A program made the position numbers and the translations under genes. Below are positions 2,253 through 43,800 of a stretch of 64,000 nucleotides of DNA, in pieces; positions within the stretch are counted from its first letter, which is position 1; every line of letters begins with the position of its first letter. Below the pieces are notes generated by a model, which did no database searches, was not told the origin of the DNA, and saw nothing but the letters and a program-made list of their open reading frames with translations. The stretch is from Branchiostoma floridae (Eukaryota > Chordata > Leptocardii > Amphioxiformes > Branchiostomatidae), in assembly GCF_000003815.2 (NCBI RefSeq), contig NC_049980.1, forward strand, positions 30,807,045 through 30,871,044, in the 5' to 3' direction.

Positions 2253-5200
2253 ATGGCGGGATTTGAAAGCGGGAAACGAAGGTAAGCTCGGGAAAATCGT
2301 GATTTGTGCGGGAAACAAGGAAACATCTGCTCCCAAACTGCGCCTAGATACGTGCTAACTGATAAGGAATGTACATGTCGAGGCTATATTAACGTGTGCG
2401 GTAAATGCACTCTCTGTTGGAAAGATACGTTTCGCGCCTCTCATCATGTTATGTCATGGTCATGCAAAATATGCTTGCGGTATATTCTTTCCCTTTTCCA
2501 AAACAGATGAACTGAAAATGAATACTATGCTAACGTTGCATTGCTTTTAGACATTCTGTGGCATATTTGAAGTGGTGCTTCATGAACAAGTCTGTCCTTA
2601 AGTTGATTATAGCTCCAGATTGTATTGAAATCAGGAAGGGGGAGGGGCTAAAATCTCTATCAAAACCAAGCCTACTGAAGTTGTCATCTTCAACCGAGTC
2701 GAAGCATAAAGCGTATTCAAGTATTTAGCAGTGCAGTGAGGCTCTACTTTATAGCCACCACATCACAATGTGCTGGGGCTTGATGTTAGTGGCTAATGTC
2801 TCGAGCTACCTATACTGACAATGGGCTGCCGGCTTTACTGTACTTGTAGAAATGGTGAATGCATCTCACACGTCATGCCCAAGCTGGGACCCGACCCTGG
2901 GACCAACCCCCACCCACAGATCAAAATAAGCCCTCTCACAGAGATCAGAGCGCATGTGCCGCGACAGGAATTCTAGGTAATAATATTATGTCAAAGGTTA
3001 AGGGCCTTGAAAAAGAAAACAGTCCTTGTCTCTGCCATCCATTGCTTAACAACTTCCAGATGGGTTTTGTTTTCTTTTTGTGGGCCTTTACATTTGACAT
3101 ATTACCTAGAATTCCTGTCACCGCACATGCACTCTGATCTCTTTGACGAGTGTGAGAGGGCTTATTCCACGCAACATGCCAAAGCTGGGGCCCGACCCTG
3201 GGATTAAACCCCCACCCACATATCCACTGAATTTGATCCACATTGCAAAACAGTGTGAAAGTGTTACTAATTGCACCTCGGGGACATTTTGTTGCTCTAC
3301 TTGCTGATATTGAGAGAGGTTTGTGCCCCTTTTCTCCACAGGTCTCCACGTGGCACCAGACGAACTCCAAATGTACAGAAAAGAAAGCTGGACATGGTGG
3401 ACAGGTAGGTTTCTTTCTTAAATCTAACGGCTGACCGATAGTGATAGATTGATGTATGCAGATCGCGGAGTGGGCTCCTGAGCCACATCAGGAGCAACAG
3501 CAGAGGACAACCTTCCAGAGGTGCACAGATGGTCTCCTGAGACTGGACTGCCAAAGTGATGTCTGTAAAAGACATGCACCATTTTAGATCATTTCCCAAC
3601 CACATAAAATGCAATAATAAGTTTTCCAAGGAGAGTAGTTTGCTTGATGCACTAAATTGGTAAATCTATATTAGAAGCCTGTTCAAACTCAAAGTTTGAA
3701 TTGCATATATACTGGTTGAAAGTCAAAGGTGAAGGCCCCTAACTTGTAAACAGTTCTTGTTTAGATCATGCTTGATCAGGGCTCTTGCCAGCTCGAAATT
3801 TTTTTCCGTCAGCCAATTTCCACTGTCGCGAAAACACTATTCCAGGTGATAGAGAGACTGAACTGACACCTTGAAAAACGGGTTTTTAATGAGATTATCG
3901 TATGTGAAAGGGCGCCGACACACTTTGTCAACTATAATAACAATAGCAAAACAAACAGTGTGTAGCTTTTACTGCCGTGGACAGCGTCCCCAAGCTGCCT
4001 GTAGCTTCCACCAAGGATTTTTGTCCAGCAAGGTTGACAGATTGGTTTGAAAATTTTTCCGTCATACGCAGCAAATTTCCGTCAATTGACGGAAAAACGG
4101 ACGCTGGCTAGAGCCCTGTGCTTGATACATGTCAAGAAGTGTTAATCTCTTGATAGCCTTTTATGTATCCTACCTGCTGAGCACTGAAGACTAACTCAGT
4201 CACTGACAACTGTCTGCTACCGGTATAATATAAAATACATGTACTATCATTTGCTTTATTGCATTCTCACAGCAGAAGCAGCATAGAGAAATCCGACGAA
4301 GGATCCCAGCATTCCGCGCAGTCCTTTTACAACAAGTCATCAGCCAATAAGAAGCGGCCTTACATCGGCCCTTTGGAGAGGAAGTACCTGCGAGAGATCG
4401 AGGAGAAGAGAGCGCAGAGATCGCGAGAAAACTCGACAGAAAGGCTGAACGGCGAGACAAAGGTTTCTCCTACAGCCCCACCTGCTGGACCGAGGAAATA
4501 CATCATCACTGTACCTGTCAAGAACAAGACTGTCAAGAAAACGCCTGTAAGAAAGAGCCCAAGAAAATCTTCCAGCCCAAGCCTCACTCCTTCAAGGCGG
4601 AGTCCTAGGAAAGCCATGACACCCCAGTTGAAGAAGACGTCACCAAGCTCAGAGAAAGCGCGTACAGGGCTTACCAAATCCACTCCGCGGACCCCTCCTT
4701 TGAGTGTGAATGAGACTGTGTACACCCTTACGCCCTCCCTCTTTAGTGACATTGACAGCCAGGACACAGATGACACGGGCAGTTTGGCAAGTTGTGAATC
4801 TAACAGCATCATTGGCCCCACCCCACCCGTTGATGCCACCACTGTGATGTCACACAAGGATGGTCAGACGGGTACTCACATGATGGGCAGCCCGCAGAGA
4901 GCAAAGGCTTCCCAACAGGTCTCACCAAAATCCTCTCCAACACAGAGGCAGACAAAGCAAGTTACCTTGCATGCCTTTCTGAAGAAGAGTCCCCAGGGGA
5001 AAACAGATGGTAAGGTGGAGTCCAGAAAGTCAGCAGAGGTTGTGTCAGAACCTGTTTCAGAAGTTACTTCTGCAAGCACTGAGCAGGAGGAGTTACTGAT
5101 GGCATTTGAGGAACTTGCCAACGCTTCTGAGAGTAAGGAGGAGGAAGATGCCTGGAATGACACAGAGATAGACAACACACCATCAGTGTGTGGATCAGAA

Positions 5201-13092: not shown

Positions 13093-14930
13093 TTTTCATT
13101 TAGACATTACGGGGCAGACATTCCATAATTATATGAATCTGGAATACTACTACTAATTATTATTAATTAATATTCGTCAATGTGTAAAACACTACATGTA
13201 AGTCTTGATATGTTTGTTGCAGTGCTTTTATTTTCTGCGATTTCTTTATTCCTACCATGAAATCATGACACTGCGAATGTACTGTGCTGCTTCTTGATTC
13301 AACCTCGAATTTAACACTTCCTTTTCCTGCCTATTGCAAAATAAAGTAAACTGGGTACTAGTATCTCACTGGAGTGCAACATGTTGGTGGCGACACTGCG
13401 TAGAAAATTGGGTGTGTTACCCTTGACTTTGTAATGAAATATCATCCCCAATTTAGATGGGATGTGCTTTGAGATTTAGTCCTCAGTTCCAACATTGTAT
13501 GAACTTTCCTGCTAATCTCCAAGCAGATCCTACGGTGCCATAAGATAGTATCAAAGCTGGCCAAGGAGTATAGCGGGCCAAAGGGAGTCAAATGGGCACC
13601 TACGGTGGGTTTGATACTATATTACGCCACCGTGGATCTGCTTGGAGATTACTTTCCTGCTACTGCAGAAACTGTACATTGCATCTGTTATTGTTTTTTT
13701 AAAAGACGTTATTTAGTTGAATTTCAATACTAGTACTTCTACAAGTTAAGGAGTACAAAGGATTTAACGGGCCGAAAATTAACACAAGATGTCCATTCCT
13801 ATAAGGAAATGACAATCAATAATTAAAATTTAATGTTCAGGTCAGCTACCTAGTACGACTTGGAAATTAAAATTACCGTGTGATAGTTGTCTTGCTATTT
13901 CTTTTAAGTAACTCGTACAAGATGATTATTTCGGTGTACTGGTAATGTATGGTATTTTAGGATTTCATGTAACTATATAGATAATACACTAACAATGGTA
14001 TTGTAATTGAACACCATCAACTTAAATAAATTAAATAGACTTGTTCTAACTGAGATGGTCAACCTTTATGACATGGTATAAAACATGACAGGCAGAAAGA
14101 CATGTCTGTACGTTAGAAAATACTGCACAATATTAGTTTGACTCCTGAAAAGGAATGTGAAGCTTTATAAGATACCATTAAAAAATTGTGTAGTTCTAAG
14201 ATTGGTTTTCATTTTTGTACTTGGGACATTTCAGCGGGAATGAGTGGTGGGATATTACTTTTACCCTGAATAAACATGAACAACCACAGTATGGTCTTCA
14301 CATTTCTTGCTCTGCTAAGAAATAGCAGTCCCTAAGGTTTCAGCTGTCTCAGCCATGCATGGGATGATATGTTGTGATGAAAAATATGAAACTTGACTTC
14401 TGCTAGGGTCCCATTTCCAAACAGGCACCTGGCAAGGCAGTTTGCAGGATCCCACGACAAAGTATGACAAAAACAGAAGACACAAATTCAGAAATTGTCA
14501 TGAAAATAACTCGTGTAAATCTCTTGATATGCGTTTTTGTTTTTATTTCTTGTTCCTGCAAACAGCACAAATGGTTCCTCTTTTGAAACTGAGACCCTGC
14601 ATTACTGAGAATGACTTTCTAGGTCTAATATGACACATCACAAAAAGCACGAGTGTTATCTTTATTTCATCTGGTTGTCTATATAGTGGGACACAGAAGT
14701 AAGGAACAGAAACGATGCCAGTTATTAGGCACATGGAAACACTGAGATCCCTTGTTGGTTTGAGAACCATTGTAAAGCACTGGGCTTGAGCACAACGATT
14801 GGTTTCTCATAAATGCCGTTCAGGTCGACATGTACAGTATATGTACCTTTAGAATAGTGATAATGTACACTGGCTCTGCTTATCACAAATAGCACCTTCA
14901 AACTAAAGATGAGGTACATACTGATGTCAC
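13093..14930 (+). other. ESCO 3' UTR and intergenic stretch
   Basis: A polyadenylation signal AATAAA lies at 13340-13345, about 250 bp after the ESCO stop. The rest is AT-rich. I see one MITE (13515-13649) and no further coding region. Confidence 0.6.
13515..13649. mobile_element. MITE, TCTCCAAGCAGAT family, copy 1
   Basis: Ends ATCTCCAAGCAGATC / GATCTGCTTGGAGAT are inverted repeats flanked by TA. The 135-bp body contains GGCCAAAGGGAGTCAAA, shared with the copy at 60375. Other copies are at 56701 and about 58374. Confidence 0.75.
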
Positions 14931-15071
14931 AGTTTCAGAGCTATATCTGAAGACCGTGGATTGATGAATTCCACAGCTGTGATATTCATCACTTAGATGA
15001 TGAATTCCACAGCTGTGATATTCATCAGATGATGAATTCCACAGCTGTGGAATCATCAATAGTGCTGTGAG

Positions 15072-16303
15072 ATTCATCGATCTACTGATGAATCCAACGC
15101 CACTTCCGTCCCTAATACTGGCGATTGGCCGTGAGATTCATCGATCTACTGATGAATCCAACGCCACTTCCGTCCCTTATACTGGCGATCGGCCGTGGGA
15201 TTCATCGATCTACTGATGAATCCAACGCCACTTCCGTCCCTTATACTGGGGATCGGCCGTGAGATTCATCGACCTACTGATGAATCCAACGCCACTTCCG
15301 TCCCTAATACTGGCGATCGGCCGTGAGATTCATCGATCTACTGATGAATCCAACGCCACTTCCGTCCCTTATACTGGCGATCGGCCGTGGGATTCATCGA
15401 TCTACTGATGAATCCAACGCCACTTCCGTCCCTAATACTGGCGATCGGCCGTGGGATTCATCGATCTACTGATGAATCCAACGCCACTTCCGCCCCTTAT
15501 ACTGGCGATCGGCCGTGGGATTCATCGATCTACTGATGAATCCAACGCCACTTCCGCCCCTTATACTGGCGATCGGCCGTGGGATTCATCGATCTACTGA
15601 TGAATCCAACGCCACTTCCGTCCCTAATACTGACGATCGGCCGTGGGATTCATCGATCTACTGATGAATCCAACGCCACTTCCGTCCCTAATACTGGCGA
15701 TCGGCCGTGGGATTCATCGATCTACTGATGAATCCAACGCCACTTCCGCCCCTTATACTGGCGATCGGCCGTGGGATTCATCGATCTACTGATGAATCCA
15801 ACGCCACTTCCGCCCCTTATACTGGCGATCGGCCGTGGGATTCATCGATCTACTGATGAATCCAACGCCACCTCCGTCCCTTATACTGGCGATCGGCCGT
15901 GAGATTCATCGATCTACTGATGAATCCAACGCCACTTCCGTCCCTAATACTGGCGATCGGCCGTGGGATTCATCGATCTACTGATGAATCCAACGCCACT
16001 TCCGTCCCTAATACTGGCGATCGGCCGTGGGATTCATCGATCTACTGATGAATCCAACGCCACTTCCGTCCCTAATACTGGCGATCGGCCGTGGGATTCA
16101 TCGATCTACTGATGAATCCAACGCCACTTCCGTCCCTTATACTGGCGATCGGCCGTGAGATTCATCGATCTACTGATGAAACCAACGCCACTTCCGTCCC
16201 TAATCCTCGCGATCGGCCGTGGGATTCATCGATCTACTGATGAATCCAACGCCACTTCTGTCCCTAATACTGGCGATCGGCCGTGGGATTCATCGATACA
16301 GTC
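15072..16303 (+). repeat. 64-bp tandem array, left arm (about 19 units)
   Basis: The unit reads GATCGGCCGTGGGATTCATC, then GATCTACTGATGAATCCAAC, then GCCACTTCCGTCCCTAATAC and TGGC. Units differ by a few substitutions (GTGAG/GTGGG, CCTAA/CCTTA, GTCC/GCCC). Each contains a short hairpin, GGATTCATC..GATGAATCC. The array is the reverse complement of 19363-20155. Confidence 0.95.
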
Positions 16304-17344
16304 TTGGATTTTACTACTTAGGTTAATTAATGATCTCTATGTCATCAAATTTTTTAATTTTTAGTCTCTCCACAGGGATGGATTTAACAGAGGCTTGATG
16401 AATTGCATGGCCGGAATCATTTCTAAAATTTAAAACTTACATACACATACATAAAAATCACTCAAATCTTTAATACCACCCACTACCGCAATGACTGATG
16501 GGATAGCTTGGGTGCCATTTTGTTCCTTTGTTTTCAGTCACATGCTGAAGATTTTTGTTCACAAACGAAATTCCCTCTTAATATGCAGACATATGTTACT
16601 CAAAAGTAGCGAACAATATGGTAAATTAGGAATTCAATATGTGTAGCAGATTAGCCCTGTTTTGAAATATCGATGGTAGACTAATTAGGACAGTTTTATC
16701 ATCGAAAAGATATAAGCGACACCATTCTTGTCGTTATATGCTATTAAAATTTTGGGCACTAGTATACCTTGCGATCAAAATGCGTAAATAAACTAACGAT
16801 ATGCTTATGGCTGCCCATTTAGTCCCGGGGTCCCATGATCACTAAAGTGTCCCACGCAGCAAAGAAGCCACACGTATGTTGATATTATTCAGTGGGCCGT
16901 GAGGTTTTTCTAGCAAGGAGCTTTTATAAAAGCTTTTAAAGTTTTATAAAAGCTCATTGGATTCAACTCTCCCTTCTATTGCTAAAATAAACTCTCTCAA
17001 TATTTCAACGATTGAGATCGTTACACTGTCTGAAGTCTTTCTTGTCAGAAATTAGGCCTATACAGGTAGGTGAGAATTCTCAAGTTTCCCTTCAATGACA
17101 AGACGAACTTTCCCAGCCAGAAAAGGCCAAGCTTGTTTTTCAATCACTCACAAACAATACTAAACCAACAGACTGTATGCAAGAAAATTTCACTGCTTCC
17201 CAATGTTGTGCTTTGTGGCTTGGGTGGTAAGGGATTATGACTTGTTTTGACCAATGCTCCTTTGTTTTTCAATCAATCACAAACAATACTAAACCAACAG
17301 ACTACTGTTTAATTGATGCTCTATCTCAACTAACTATTCACCTT

Positions 17345-18030
17345 ATGTAAAACAAGCTAAAGCCCCAACAAACCCATTACCAACTAAGTACATTTGGGAT
17401 GATAACTCCAAACTCAAATTTACAGAGGCATTACAGGATCCTCCGATATAAAAAAAAATCTTACAAAAGTTTACTGCTAAGTCATTTTGTGACGTAGACA
17501 ATGCAGTAAAAGAATTTTCTGACATAATCACACATGTAGCTGATAAATGTCTGCGTAAAATTACCCACAACAATAACAAGAAAAGAAAGAAGAAAAGTAA
17601 ACCATGGTTCAACCATTCATGTGCATCTCTTAAACGCAAAATAAAACAATTAGCCACTCCGTTTTCTAAGTGCCTGTGGAAACTTGATGTTCGCCACGTA
17701 TACTTCTGCAATCTGAAATTGTACAAGAAGAAAATCAAGACAGAGAAAAGACTCTTCAAAGAAATACAATTAAACAATCTCAGAAAACTTAGTAAGGAAA
17801 ATCCACAAAAATATAATCTTGGAGGGAAATCAAATCACTGTGACAGGAAGATAATGTTCAACAGAAGGATGATAATGCCATTAACCCAGAAGAATGTTTG
17901 ACTCATTTCAAAACTTTAAACAATTTTGTTGATAATAAGGAGCCAAATAAAGACTTTACTCAACATGCTGCTCAAGAATGGCCTGTTCAACAGAAGGATG
18001 ATAAGGCCATTAACCCAGAAGAATGTTTTT
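17345..18030 (+). pseudogene. LINE fragment (endonuclease to reverse-transcriptase linker)
   Basis: A broken reading frame encodes KYIWDDNSKLKFTEALQDPP, then CLRKITHNNNKKRKKKSKPW and a Lys-rich helix region ending in LSKENPQKY. This pattern (PWFN..C..LK, many Lys, then NPQKYW) is typical of the segment between endonuclease and reverse transcriptase in many animal non-LTR elements. The start and the whole RT domain are missing. A block of about 40 bp (AACAGAAGGATGATAAKGCC...) is duplicated at 17859 and 17989. Confidence 0.65.
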
Positions 18031-18042
18031 TATTTCACTGTA

Positions 18043-18170
18043 GCAACATGCACTATAGTCTCTTACTGTTATGGAAAAATGTTCGCGGCGGTTTTAAATT
18101 CGCAGTGAAGTGGCCGCCGTGAAAACCGCGAAGTTCATTTAATCCACCGAGAACGTTTCTGCATTTACAG
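18043..18170. mobile_element. CTGTAAATGC-family MITE, truncated copy (B)
   Basis: The right half matches the other family members: TGGAAAAATGTTCGCGGCGG, GTGGCCGCCG and the end TCTGCATTTACAG followed by TA. The left terminal repeat is missing. Confidence 0.7.
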
Positions 18171-19311
18171 TACAGCATATTTCAGCCATCTCCCTCCCCA
18201 TGCAACAATAGACTATTCCAAAATCACCCATGTGCAAAAATGGAACACTTTTCTTTAAAAGTCACTTCTACTAATGACACTTTAGCCCAAAATTCCCAGT
18301 GCAAGAATTTACTCTTCCAGTGCACCCCATGTCACATGCTGAACAAAAATCTTCAGCATGTGACTGAAAACTAAGGAACAAAATGGAACACAAGCTATCC
18401 CATCAGTCATTGCGGTAGCGGGTGGTATTAAAGATTTGAGTGATTTTTTTCTTTCTACGCTGCGTTCGACTTCATCACAACATATTGATAAAGTCCACAG
18501 TCAATTGTCAGTATTAGCGACGGAATGCCCGTGGATATTATCACTACATATTGATGACTGTAAGTGCAGGGTGTTTTGTGTATATTGTGCAACTTTTGTT
18601 ATTGGTCACGCAACAGGAGCAGTGCAACTCTATTACTAATTAGTATTGTGTGCAATTCTAGCATTTGTCAGCTCCATTTGTACAGGAATGTGTCCACAGG
18701 AATGCTAGTTCACGCCACGGTAATGTTTGGAATGTTATTACCTAGGAAAAGCTATCCAGCCATTAATTACTTGGTAACAGGTGGGTCCTGCAGGCCCTCA
18801 GGAGTATTATTTTGCAAATAAACAATCAATATTATTCTAGGAAACAGCGACATTGTTACATGTGTCAGCCAAGTGGCTTTTTTGCGGGAGTCAATGTAAA
18901 TAGTGTGTTATACATGTAATCAAACAGAAAAAAAACATGCAGATAAAGATTTATATCAATTATACTGTACTGGACAGCTCACAACATGGTTAGCAATTCA
19001 TTTGAATTACAAGTTGAAATGTTTATGCCTCGAAGCGCAAAACTCCAAAATCAGCAAAAAAAATCTTCCTTGCAGGAATTTCCAGATGATCATTGGTTTG
19101 ATGATTGATTGTAACTTTATTCAAATGTGTGCTAATATGAATATGTGACCAATAAATGCAAAGTTCTCAGTACACTTTTTTTCTTGCTCATTCAGCTGTC
19201 GATAAGTGCTAGAATTTGTGAGTCCCACAACAAAGAATAGTACAAGAAATATTACAAAGCTCTCTGTAGAAGCATCCGCACTGCCATAGACAGTAGATTT
19301 TATCATTACAT

Positions 19312-20160
19312 AGATGAATCCGACGACCAAAGGCTTTATAGTATTAGTGACAGAATGGACGTTGGATTCATCAGTAGATCGATGAATCCCACGGCCGATC
19401 GCCAGTATAAGGGACGGAAGTGGCGTTGGATTCATCAGTAGATCGATGAATCCCACGGCCGATCGCCGGTATTAGGGACGGAAGTGGCGTTGGATTCATC
19501 AGTAGATCGATGAATCTCACGGCCGATCGCCAGTATAAGGGACGGAAGTGGCGTTGGATTCATCAGTAGATCGATGAATCCCACGGCCGATCGCCAGTAT
19601 TAGGGACGGAAGTGGCGTTGGATTCATCAGTAGATCGATGAATCTCACGGCCGATCGCCAGTATAAGGGACGGAAGTGGCGTTGGATTCATCAGTAGATC
19701 GATGAATCCCACGGCAGATCGCCAGTATTAGGGACGGAAGTGGCGTTGGATTCATCAGTAGATCGATGAATCTCACGGCCGATCGCCAGTATTACAGATG
19801 GAAGTGGCGTTGGGTTCATCAGTAGATCGATGAATCCCACGGCCGATCGCCAGTATAAGGGGCGGAAGTGGCGTTGGATTCATCAGTAGATCGATGAATC
19901 CCACGGCCGATCGCCAGTATAAGGGACGGAAGTGGCGTTGGGTTCATCAGTAGGTCGATGAATCCCACGGCCGATCGCCAGTATAAGGGGCGGAAGTGGC
20001 GTTGGATTCATCAGTAGATCGATGAATCTCACGGCCGATCGCCAGTACTAGGGACAGAAGTGGCGTTGGGTTCATCAGTAGATCGATGAATCCCACGGCC
20101 GATCGCCAGTATTAGGGACGGAAGTGGCGTTGAATTCATCAGTAGATCGATGAATCCCAC
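19312..20160 (-). repeat. 64-bp tandem array, right arm (12-13 units, inverted)
   Basis: This is the reverse complement of the left-arm unit, starting with a degenerate unit near 19312-19375 and running in near-perfect 64-bp steps. The adjoining 20160-20360 holds repeats of GATGAATATCACAGCTGTGG and AATTCATCATTTTCACAGCT, the outer-zone unit. Confidence 0.95.
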
Positions 20161-20773
20161 AGCACTATTGATTAATTCCATAGCTGTGGAACTCATCATC
20201 TAAGTGATGAATATCACAGCTGTGGAATTCATCATTTTCACAGCTGTGGAATTCATCATCTAAGTGATGAATATCACAGCTGTGGAATTCATCATTTTCA
20301 CAGCTGTGGAATTCATCATCTAAGTGATGAATATCACAGCTGTGGAATTCATCAATCCACGGTCTTCGGATATACCTGAGTTTCAGGGATGGTACAATTG
20401 ACACTTAAGTAACAAAAATGAGGTATGTCAGTTATAAGAACTAGTACATGAGCAATCAAATATTTTCCTGACAGAAATTGTTATAACATTAAACTACAGT
20501 AAAGCTACAATCTACATATTGTGCCTTCAACTAAAACCTAACACAATCTACATACAAGACTGAAAGTTAACTGAAAGACATTACAAAAATACATCTTGTG
20601 ATGAAAAAATAGAGTAAAAACTAATATATCTCCTTGGCACGGACGTTGCTTTGTACAGCTTCACAGTATCTTTCCCTGATAAAGCTACTCTGACTTCAAC
20701 AGTTCCAGAGCAAACACTTGGAGGGTATTTCAGTACATAGCTAATAGAAAAGTAAGCACTACCGGTATTACTT

Positions 20774-40818: not shown

Positions 40819-43800
40819 ATGTCGCGACAGAAAGCCGAGAAAGAGAGGGAAAGGGAGAAGAAACTCAACGAGAAACACCAGGCCATCCTAGCGCAGCTTT
40901 TACGCGAAGAAGACAACAAGTACTGCGTGGATTGCGAGGCGAAAGGTAACGATAGTTCTTCACCTGGCAGGGGTAACGTAACGTTTTTTGAAGGTGGGAG
41001 GGCGGAGTTATCGGGTCCCACAGGACTTTCGCTCATCAAAAATGTCTCCTCGCGTGTAGCCAACTTTCGAATACATCATGATCAGACAGAGGATGTCATA
41101 ACCTGGCATAACTAATGGTCTACCGCAAGGTGAAATTGACTTGAATACGGGTTCTGTCTGAAACTTCCTTGCGGAAGGGGGAGGGGGGCTAGAAGCCGAC
41201 TGTATGCGACCCGGATCTATAAATTTTTGTCAAATCTTTCGGTTTCTGCCCTATCAAACTCCTTGTCGTAACTACAAGGTTAAAGATTCAGGCTTTCTTG
41301 GCCAGGATAGGAGGTAGAACTCCTTTGACTCTTGTTGTTGTTGTTGTACTTGTAGCAAATTGTTCATTTATAATTTGCACACCTTAAACTTTCAAGTCTC
41401 GCCCACTGTCTACATCTCTTCCAGTTCCTGGAAATATAGTGTAAAAGCATATTTCAAGTTTGCGGGAGTGGGAAAATGGAGTGTTTCTGGTGGTTTTAGC
41501 TTGTGGTAGCACCATAGACTGTAGTCACATACTATAAATGGAAAGATGTTCGAGGTGGTTTTAAGTTTGCGGTTAAGTGGCCGCCACAGAAACCACAAAC
41601 ATTTTCTGCATTTACAGTAGTTTTCAGGAAAAAATAGTCTTCAATATTTCATGGTGACCTCTCCATCACAAATTCACGACAACACAAATATACATTTTTT
41701 ATGTATTACCACAGTTCTATACTACAGAATTAATAACTTGAAATGCTACGAAAACCTTTTAGTTTTACCTCCGAGTCTTACCATGAATTTGAATGTCTCC
41801 ACGAAAATAAACAAAAAGAAGGGAGGAAGATACCTGTAGTCTTTAGGTACATTTATACAACAACAACTCTGGTATTCTGGTACAATTCTGTTATCATTTG
41901 GGGAAAACATCGTCATGCCATAGAAAAGGCATTTTCATTTAAACAAAAGTAAGGTTCTGGCTCTTTAAGCCTCTTACTGGGCCACAATGACTTGTATCTA
42001 TTCAGACTATTGAGTCAATTTTTGACCGCTTAAAAATAACACATCAGAATTAAAGAAAGATTCAACGCTGCATTTTATCATGTGCAGTCGCTGTCTGCTG
42101 TCTATTATATCTTACCTTTTGATCTGAACTTTGGACAAAAGCAAATAATGTGTACACACGGTAAACACGAGACAGAGCATGTATCCATTACGTTCTGTGC
42201 CAGAATGTTATGTGGAAGGAGCCAGGGCCTTGGTTGTCAACACAACATACATCATGTACTATCTAATGAGTTAACTCATTACTGCATATCTCACCGACAG
42301 TCAATTGTGAAGTTCCATCATGAATGTAGAGGAAAACTGAGACATACCAATGTGACATTCATTGCATTTTTTTATGTTTTATTTATGAAAGACATGAATT
42401 ATAAATTTTTCATGCGGTATTTGTATGTATGTGCAAAAGGAATGCCACATGACAAGAAGGCAAAGGCTTGCTACATTTCTCTCAATGGATACACAATTAG
42501 TATAAACTACTGTTGAAATAAAGACATTTCAATGTCTCAGATACGGAAAAATTCATTTACAAATGTATTTCAAGGGGATTTGATTAGGCAGTAGTGCTAG
42601 GGAAAATGAGATTTCATGTTGGGAAAATGAGGTTTTCATGTTGGGAAAATGAGGGTTTTTTTCAGTTTTTTGTCTGAAGCAATTCTGTAGTACAGTAGTA
42701 ATACATTATAAATGCACATTCATGACACATTCTTAAGTTATAATACCTGAAACATGGGATATTTTTGCACCATTGTTTTATTGACAAAGGGTGTCTTGAA
42801 TTCGCATTGAAGAGGTCACTGCATATATAACCATGAAAATAAAACAATTGCGCACCTGCAAATTCTAAGTGTATGTTAGCCTGAATACACGAGTGAACAA
42901 GATCTGGTTTTTCCTTTCCTCAAGGACCAAGATGGGCGTCCTGGAACCTGGGCCTGTTCCTGTGTATCCGCTGTGCCGGGATCCACCGCAACCTGGGCGT
43001 GCACATCTCACGCGTAAAGTCTGTCAACCTGGACTCATGGACACCCGAGCAGATACAGGTAAAGGGAACTGTTTGTTTGTTTGTTTGTTTGCCTGATCCT
43101 GTGTATCCGCTGTGCCGGGATCCACCGCAACCTGGGAGTGCACATCTCACGCGTAAAGTCTGTCAACCTGGACTCATGGACACCCGAGCAGATACAGGTA
43201 AGGGGAACTGTTTGTTTGTTTGCCTGATCCTGTGTATCCGCTGTGCCGGGATCCACCGCAACCTGGGCGTGCACATCTCACGCGTAAAGTCTGTCAACCT
43301 GGACTCATGGACACCCGAGCAGATACAGGTAAAGGGAACTGTTTGTTTGTTTGTTTGTTTGCCTGATCCTGTGTATCCGCTGTGCCGGGATCCACCGCAA
43401 CCTGGGCGTGCACATCTCACGCGTAAAGTCTGTCAACCTGGACTCATGGACACCCGAGCAGATACAGGTAAAGGGAACTGTTTGTTTGTTTGTTTGTTTG
43501 CCTGATCCTGTGTATCCGCTGTGCCGGGATCCACCGCAACCTGGGCGTGCACATCTCACGCGTAAAGTCTGTCAACCTGGACTCATGGACACCCGAGCAG
43601 ATACAGGTAAGGGGAACTGTTTGTTTGTTTGCCTGATCCTGTGTATCCGCTGTGCCGGGATCCACCGTAACCTGGGAGTGCACATCTCACGCGTAAAGTC
43701 TGTCAACCTGGACTCATGGACACCCGAGCAGATACAGGTAAAGGGAGGTTTTTGTTTGTCTGCTTGTTTGTTTGTTTATTTTACATACCCAGTAAACTGT

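Follow-up and report, generated by a model that had tools for sequence, protein, structure and literature searches.

Foldback transposons such as FB of Drosophila melanogaster and TU of sea urchin have the same architecture as the element described here, and they duplicate 9 bp and 8 bp of target DNA, respectively. This element is located in a 64,000-nucleotide stretch of the Branchiostoma floridae genome (contig NC_049980.1, positions 30,807,045 to 30,871,044), hereafter named the window. As described in the available text of PMC3573991 and PMC3688188, Galileo, a P superfamily element of Drosophila, resembles it in its long inverted arms with internal repetition, its 7-bp duplications, its unequal numbers of arm repeats, and its chimeric copies without matching duplications. 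The likeness is one of description, not of sequence letters, and Galileo has transposase-coding copies, whereas none was found here. Tetris, a foldback element of Drosophila virilis, is likewise non-autonomous, with tandem arm repeats that are tied to satellite DNA and with no transposase found, but its duplications are 8–10 bp and its arm repeat is TIR-220 (PMC4079207, available text). Tm1, a Mutator/foldback family of Meloidogyne, shares composite arms with repeated motifs, and terminal motifs that are asymmetric and lie outside the inverted repeat; it differs in that its duplications are mostly 9 bp and that some copies encode a putative transposase (PMC3169594, available text). In Rehavkus, which is related to Mutator, a minisatellite also adjoins the terminal repeat, but only before the 3′ end, and the accessible part of PMC6446971 gives a 9-bp duplication, a PHD-finger transposase, and arthropod and annelid hosts.

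The results presented below indicate that the element in the window is very probably a foldback-type DNA transposon that moves by cut-and-paste and is non-autonomous, and whose arrays would multiply binding sites for a transposase acting in trans. Its two arms (left, 1,360 bp, positions 14938–16297; right, 1,039 bp, positions 19340–20378) are each composed of a terminal repeat, a zone of GATGAATTCCACAGCTGTG copies and 64-bp units, 19 on the left and 13 on the right, and they are complementary at 95% over 833 bp. The element thus has the long terminal inverted repeats made of tandem subrepeats that characterize the foldback class. The GAATTCCACAGCTGTG zones sit outside both arrays, and the near-palindrome GATGAATTCCACAGCTGTGGAATTCATC present in the outer zones occurs at five places in the element with up to two mismatches. 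The terminal repeats read TATATC(C/T)GAAGACCGTGG, and the outermost four bases are asymmetric, GAGC and CAGG not being inverted copies of each other. Inverted ends, and arms built of inverted 64-bp arrays plus an outer zone, had already been described in a first-pass annotation made from the letters of this DNA, and these measurements bear out both.

The 513.43 Mb genome was searched with the terminal 28-mer pattern, allowing up to two mismatches. A total of 82 matches were listed, compared with none for the reversed pattern used as control, so the terminal repeats are not a product of chance. Lists of matches, for ends as well as for transposase domains, are lower bounds, and the pattern skips ends with greater degeneracy, for example in L022 and L025. 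Inspected by eye, 24 of the listed ends were of the type found in the window (A-type; 14 left and 10 right), four were C-type, and the remaining 54 were mostly B-type. The ends are common to at least three related families: A, to which the element in the window belongs, B and C. Like other foldback elements, this one therefore belongs to a dispersed multi-copy family with common ends. Six further sites on four other contigs (L012, L013, L014, L016, L018 and L020) each showed both inverted arrays within one stretch. The first-pass annotation had raised two objections to its own proposal of a foldback-like element, namely that the ends might be unique to this locus and that the arms might be an assembly artefact of one array. 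The former fails because further loci carry these ends together with their own duplications, and the latter is contradicted by the six other two-armed sites. The proposal itself is supported by the recurrent ends, the inverted repeat arms and the target duplications. As a separate observation, L023 (contig C12) and L024 (C4) have an identical 30-base flank beside an A-type left end, which suggests a duplicated segment.

Family B has units of 66 bp, and in five pairs examined its ends are separated by ∼11–18 kb. Array units were compared using 323 units from 24 arrays of family A (mean divergence from their consensus, 3.7%), 122 units of family B, and the units of one family C locus (L070). Identity over aligned columns was 50/67 for A and B, 47/67 for A and C, and 48/68 for B and C. 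Judged by alignment scores (29, 24.5 and 24, respectively) far above the maxima of shuffled units (9, 6.5 and 4), the array units of the three families are homologous. A satellite of ∼206 bp was observed inside or beside family B elements (L043/L048, L047, L033, L038 and L049), and the B copy at C5:8591288 adjoins a diverged array of it.

Comparison of copies also fixed the exact ends of the element. An 8-bp target duplication had been proposed, which is corrected here to 7 bp, AGTTTCA, on both sides. The eighth base, a G, is the element's own first base (GAGC...) on the left, and on the right it is a G by chance. The eighth base differs in L013, L017 and L018, where the first seven agree, so it belongs to the element, and an eight-base duplication was rejected. 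Exact 7-bp duplications flank five of the eight A copies for which both ends are available, these being the element in the window, L012 (TATTGAG), L013 (GTTTGAT), L017 (ATTCTAC) and L018 (CAGAGAC), and L020 has one of 8 bp, TTTCATGT. This count omits L011, whose small contig carries the L013 flank, L014, which has lost its right end, L015 with its mixed ends, and L019 and L021–L025, in each of which one end was observed. Family B, whose ends are GAGG and CAGG, has 7-bp duplications in four of five pairs by eye (GTGGAAG, CCAATAA, CTATTGC and TGACATT). These pairs are inward-facing ends 10.6–18.4 kb apart, wider candidates, spanning 38 kb on C5 and 60 kb on C8, being left out. Among the 13 pooled pairs the duplication is 7 bp in nine, 8 bp in one and not exact in three, and its length lies within the 7–10 bp of foldback elements. 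The chance of a 7-bp match at a fixed offset is 6e-5 for each, the offset having been picked after the copies were viewed.

Several observations weigh against a transposon of this kind. No exact duplication was found for L016 or for a pair of ends 42 kb apart on C5 (two of the eight A pairs; the C5 pair agrees at 6 of 7 bases), nor for the B pair C5:6022/6035 (one of five). L014 lost its right end, and L015 combines an A-type left end with B-type right ends; an interior piece of L015 (149 bp), outside the divergence count given below, is also more diverged (94.6% identity). In the two insertions for which an empty site was sought, those of the window and L018, the joined flanks matched only their own two halves. 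Finally, no autonomous copy with A, B or C ends was present among the copies read.

This last point agrees with the first-pass annotation, in which no transposase was visible. A Pfam scan of 19 longer interior open reading frames (ORFs), four from the element in the window, five from L020, four from L016 and six from a family B copy on C5, gave no transposase domain, and the weak matches (ApoC-I, DUF7583, DUF7475 and a phage-tail model) were below the curated cut-offs. The longest plus-strand ORF of the window interior (149 aa, 17452–17901) lacks a transposase domain and matched no solved structure. An origin of this ORF from a long interspersed nuclear element (LINE), suspected by eye, was rejected, no similarity to a LINE-like ORF in L032 having been detected. 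Rfam gave no match over window positions 14900–20420. A family C element carries the core of the 109-bp inner inverted repeat as a subterminal repeat. The interiors of L016 and L020 carry an extra 2.9 kb and 2.5 kb, which are mutually dissimilar, and L016 has a further 1.4 kb beside its right arm; the nine ORFs scanned in these two copies were among those without a transposase domain. Family B was considered as autonomous partner and rejected as far as its copies were read, the parts covered containing the ∼206-bp satellite and no long transposase ORF (in L049, 1,809 of 5,000 bases are N); other B copies may still encode one. The 42-kb pair on C5 (C5:22433426–22475948; L010, L029–L032 and L009) is likewise not supported as a giant autonomous copy, being rather an A copy interrupted by 31,000 bp of different DNA, with ORFs that by eye resemble an ADAMTS-type gene. 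A 1-kb sample of this intervening DNA has a relative of 79–90% identity at C5:25.896 Mb, and the split may reflect rearrangement, insertion or mis-assembly. L012 is embedded in DNA that looks by eye like a transposase gene (GRPSSA motif).

Since no autonomous copy was observed, we infer that the element moves in trans. A transposase supplied by an element elsewhere would bind the GATGAA-type motif that recurs in the arrays and outer zones, would cut at the GAG and CAG ends, and would insert the element with a 7-bp stagger. The arrays would multiply the binding sites and would grow or shrink through unequal exchange or replication slippage, while the interior would be passenger DNA, including pieces that resemble family B. 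The motif GATGAA occurs 78 times in the arms (∼2.4 kb), three times in the interior and 38 times in the 58.5 kb outside the element, a concentration for which the repeat nature of the arms itself accounts in part. Retention of the unit across families A, B and C is more telling for the binding-site idea than these counts. By analogy with Galileo, whose THAP domain binds sites within its arm repeats (PMC3688188, available text), the arrays probably multiply putative transposase-binding sites.

The structure might alternatively be no transposon, but an inverted satellite pair produced by local rearrangement or mis-assembly. Tandem arrays readily collapse and rearrange, and several copies hold runs of N; however, these ends and the two-armed structure are found at unlinked sites whose target duplications all differ, and we consider this explanation extremely improbable. 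The other alternatives differ only in the acting transposase and are all compatible with a foldback-type transposon mobilized in trans. That the enzyme belongs to the P superfamily (THAP), which would make the element a chordate counterpart of Galileo, was hinted at in the first-pass annotation and is possible though somewhat doubtful. The long repetitive arms are consistent with it, as are the P-type matches in the genome (at least three for PF21789 and at least three for PF21787, two of the latter in reading frames on C19 (767 aa) and C11 (678 aa)). Against this, among the matches listed, the nearest for PF21789 is 580 kb from any listed end and the nearest for PF21787 (C19:10311853) is ∼577 kb from one. 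In addition, P-element ends begin with CA, whereas one end of the present element begins with GAG. The duplications, of 7 bp or in one case 8 bp in 10 of the 13 pairs, fall within the 7–8 bp of the P superfamily and agree with the 7 bp of Galileo (PMC3573991, available text); duplication length alone is insufficient to assign the element to this superfamily.

A Mutator-like transposase, which the available text of PMC4079207 suggests for most foldback elements, would be in line with the foldback structure and with the at least 27 matches to Mutator-like element (MULE) domains in the genome, and Tm1, as a Mutator/foldback family, likewise has asymmetric terminal motifs (PMC3169594, available text). 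However, MULEs duplicate 8–11 bp according to the accessible part of PMC6446971, so the duplications found here, 7 bp in nine of the 13 pairs and 8 bp in only one, point away from Mutator, and the nearest MULE match among those listed is 50.8 kb from a listed end; we regard this source as unlikely. A transposase of another lineage (hAT, KDZ, Dada or an unnamed one) would be consistent with the fact that none of the listed P and MULE matches lies near the ends, and has a real, if less than even, chance of being the enzyme involved. As an observation in its own right, the accessible part of PMC6446971 reports no MULE transposases in Branchiostoma floridae, compared with the at least 27 MULE matches and two long P-type frames found here.

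Family A looks young, since the aligned interiors of its copies diverge little: relative to the interior in the window, the difference is 0.18–2.05% across ten stretches (seven sites plus the small contig C386), counting aligned pieces longer than 200 bp. Array length varies, 22 arrays in 14 records holding 6–23 units, some of them truncated by N or where a contig or fetched stretch ends, and those of L022, L023 and L024 holding one, four and two units. L011 (on C386) and L013 have a common 58-base flank except for its last bases, and an arm of 11 units in the former against 21 in the latter. L011 thus looks like an allele of L013 with a shorter array, an assembly error being possible; it also has ∼2 kb (2936–4924) lacking a match to L013. 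Units differ on average by 5.6% within an array, 5.9% between the arms of a locus (eight loci) and 7.8% between loci. This lower difference within copies is a weak sign of within-copy homogenization.

The structural class is known, and families A, B and C are a new family group within it. The available texts of PMC4079207 and PMC3169594 name foldback elements from insects, nematodes, plants and sea urchin, and our literature search, which covered sources other than Repbase, where an entry may exist, found no description of such elements in amphioxus. A young group of three families in a cephalochordate provides a new case for asking why differing transposons gain arrays in their arms. With a unit conserved between families and an array length that varies between copies, the binding-site idea lends itself to direct testing. 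Rearrangements can also start from long inverted arms, as described for Galileo in Drosophila (PMC2775673, available text). A more far-reaching proposal, which we hold to be rather unlikely, is that A, B and C form a diversified cephalochordate foldback lineage with asymmetric ends (GAGC/GAGG versus CAGG), retained homologous arrays and a transposase lineage not yet tied to foldbacks, in which the arrays would act as an expandable multi-site landing platform.

Table 1. Features of the family A element, in window coordinates.
Feature	Position	Strand	Remarks
Whole element, family A	14938–20378	+	5,441 bp; ends set by copy comparison
Left target-site duplication	14931–14937	n/a	7 bp, AGTTTCA
Left terminal repeat	14938–14959	+	GAGCTATATCTGAAGACCGTGG; inner boundary approximate
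Left outer zone	14960–15066	+	near-palindrome copies, GATGAATTCCACAGCTGTG...TTCATC
Left array	15067–16297	+	64-bp unit, 19.2 copies, 96% matches
Interior	16298–19339	n/a	∼3 kb, common to other A copies
Inner inverted repeat, left copy	16453–16561	+	109 bp
Two pieces like family B interior	17099–17240 and 17254–17303	-	82% and 94%, respectively
Inner inverted repeat, right copy	18340–18448	-	
Relic of family B 66-bp array in A interior	18468–18557	-	79–92% to B arrays
Right array	19340–20160	-	64-bp unit inverted, 12.8 copies, 93% matches
Right outer zone	20161–20356	-	includes 60-bp repeat, 2.9 copies (20182–20354)
Right terminal repeat	20357–20378	-	CAGGTATATCCGAAGACCGTGG, as read on the - strand
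Right target-site duplication	20379–20385	n/a	7 bp, AGTTTCA

Two further features were observed elsewhere in the window. Positions 42952–43770 contain tandem copies (period 139/270/409), each with an ArfGAP-like exon by eye, which may be a repeated exon or an assembly effect. An ORF at positions 590–1414 contains a partial RNase H domain (PF00075, E 3.3e-6) and is probably the remnant of a retroelement.

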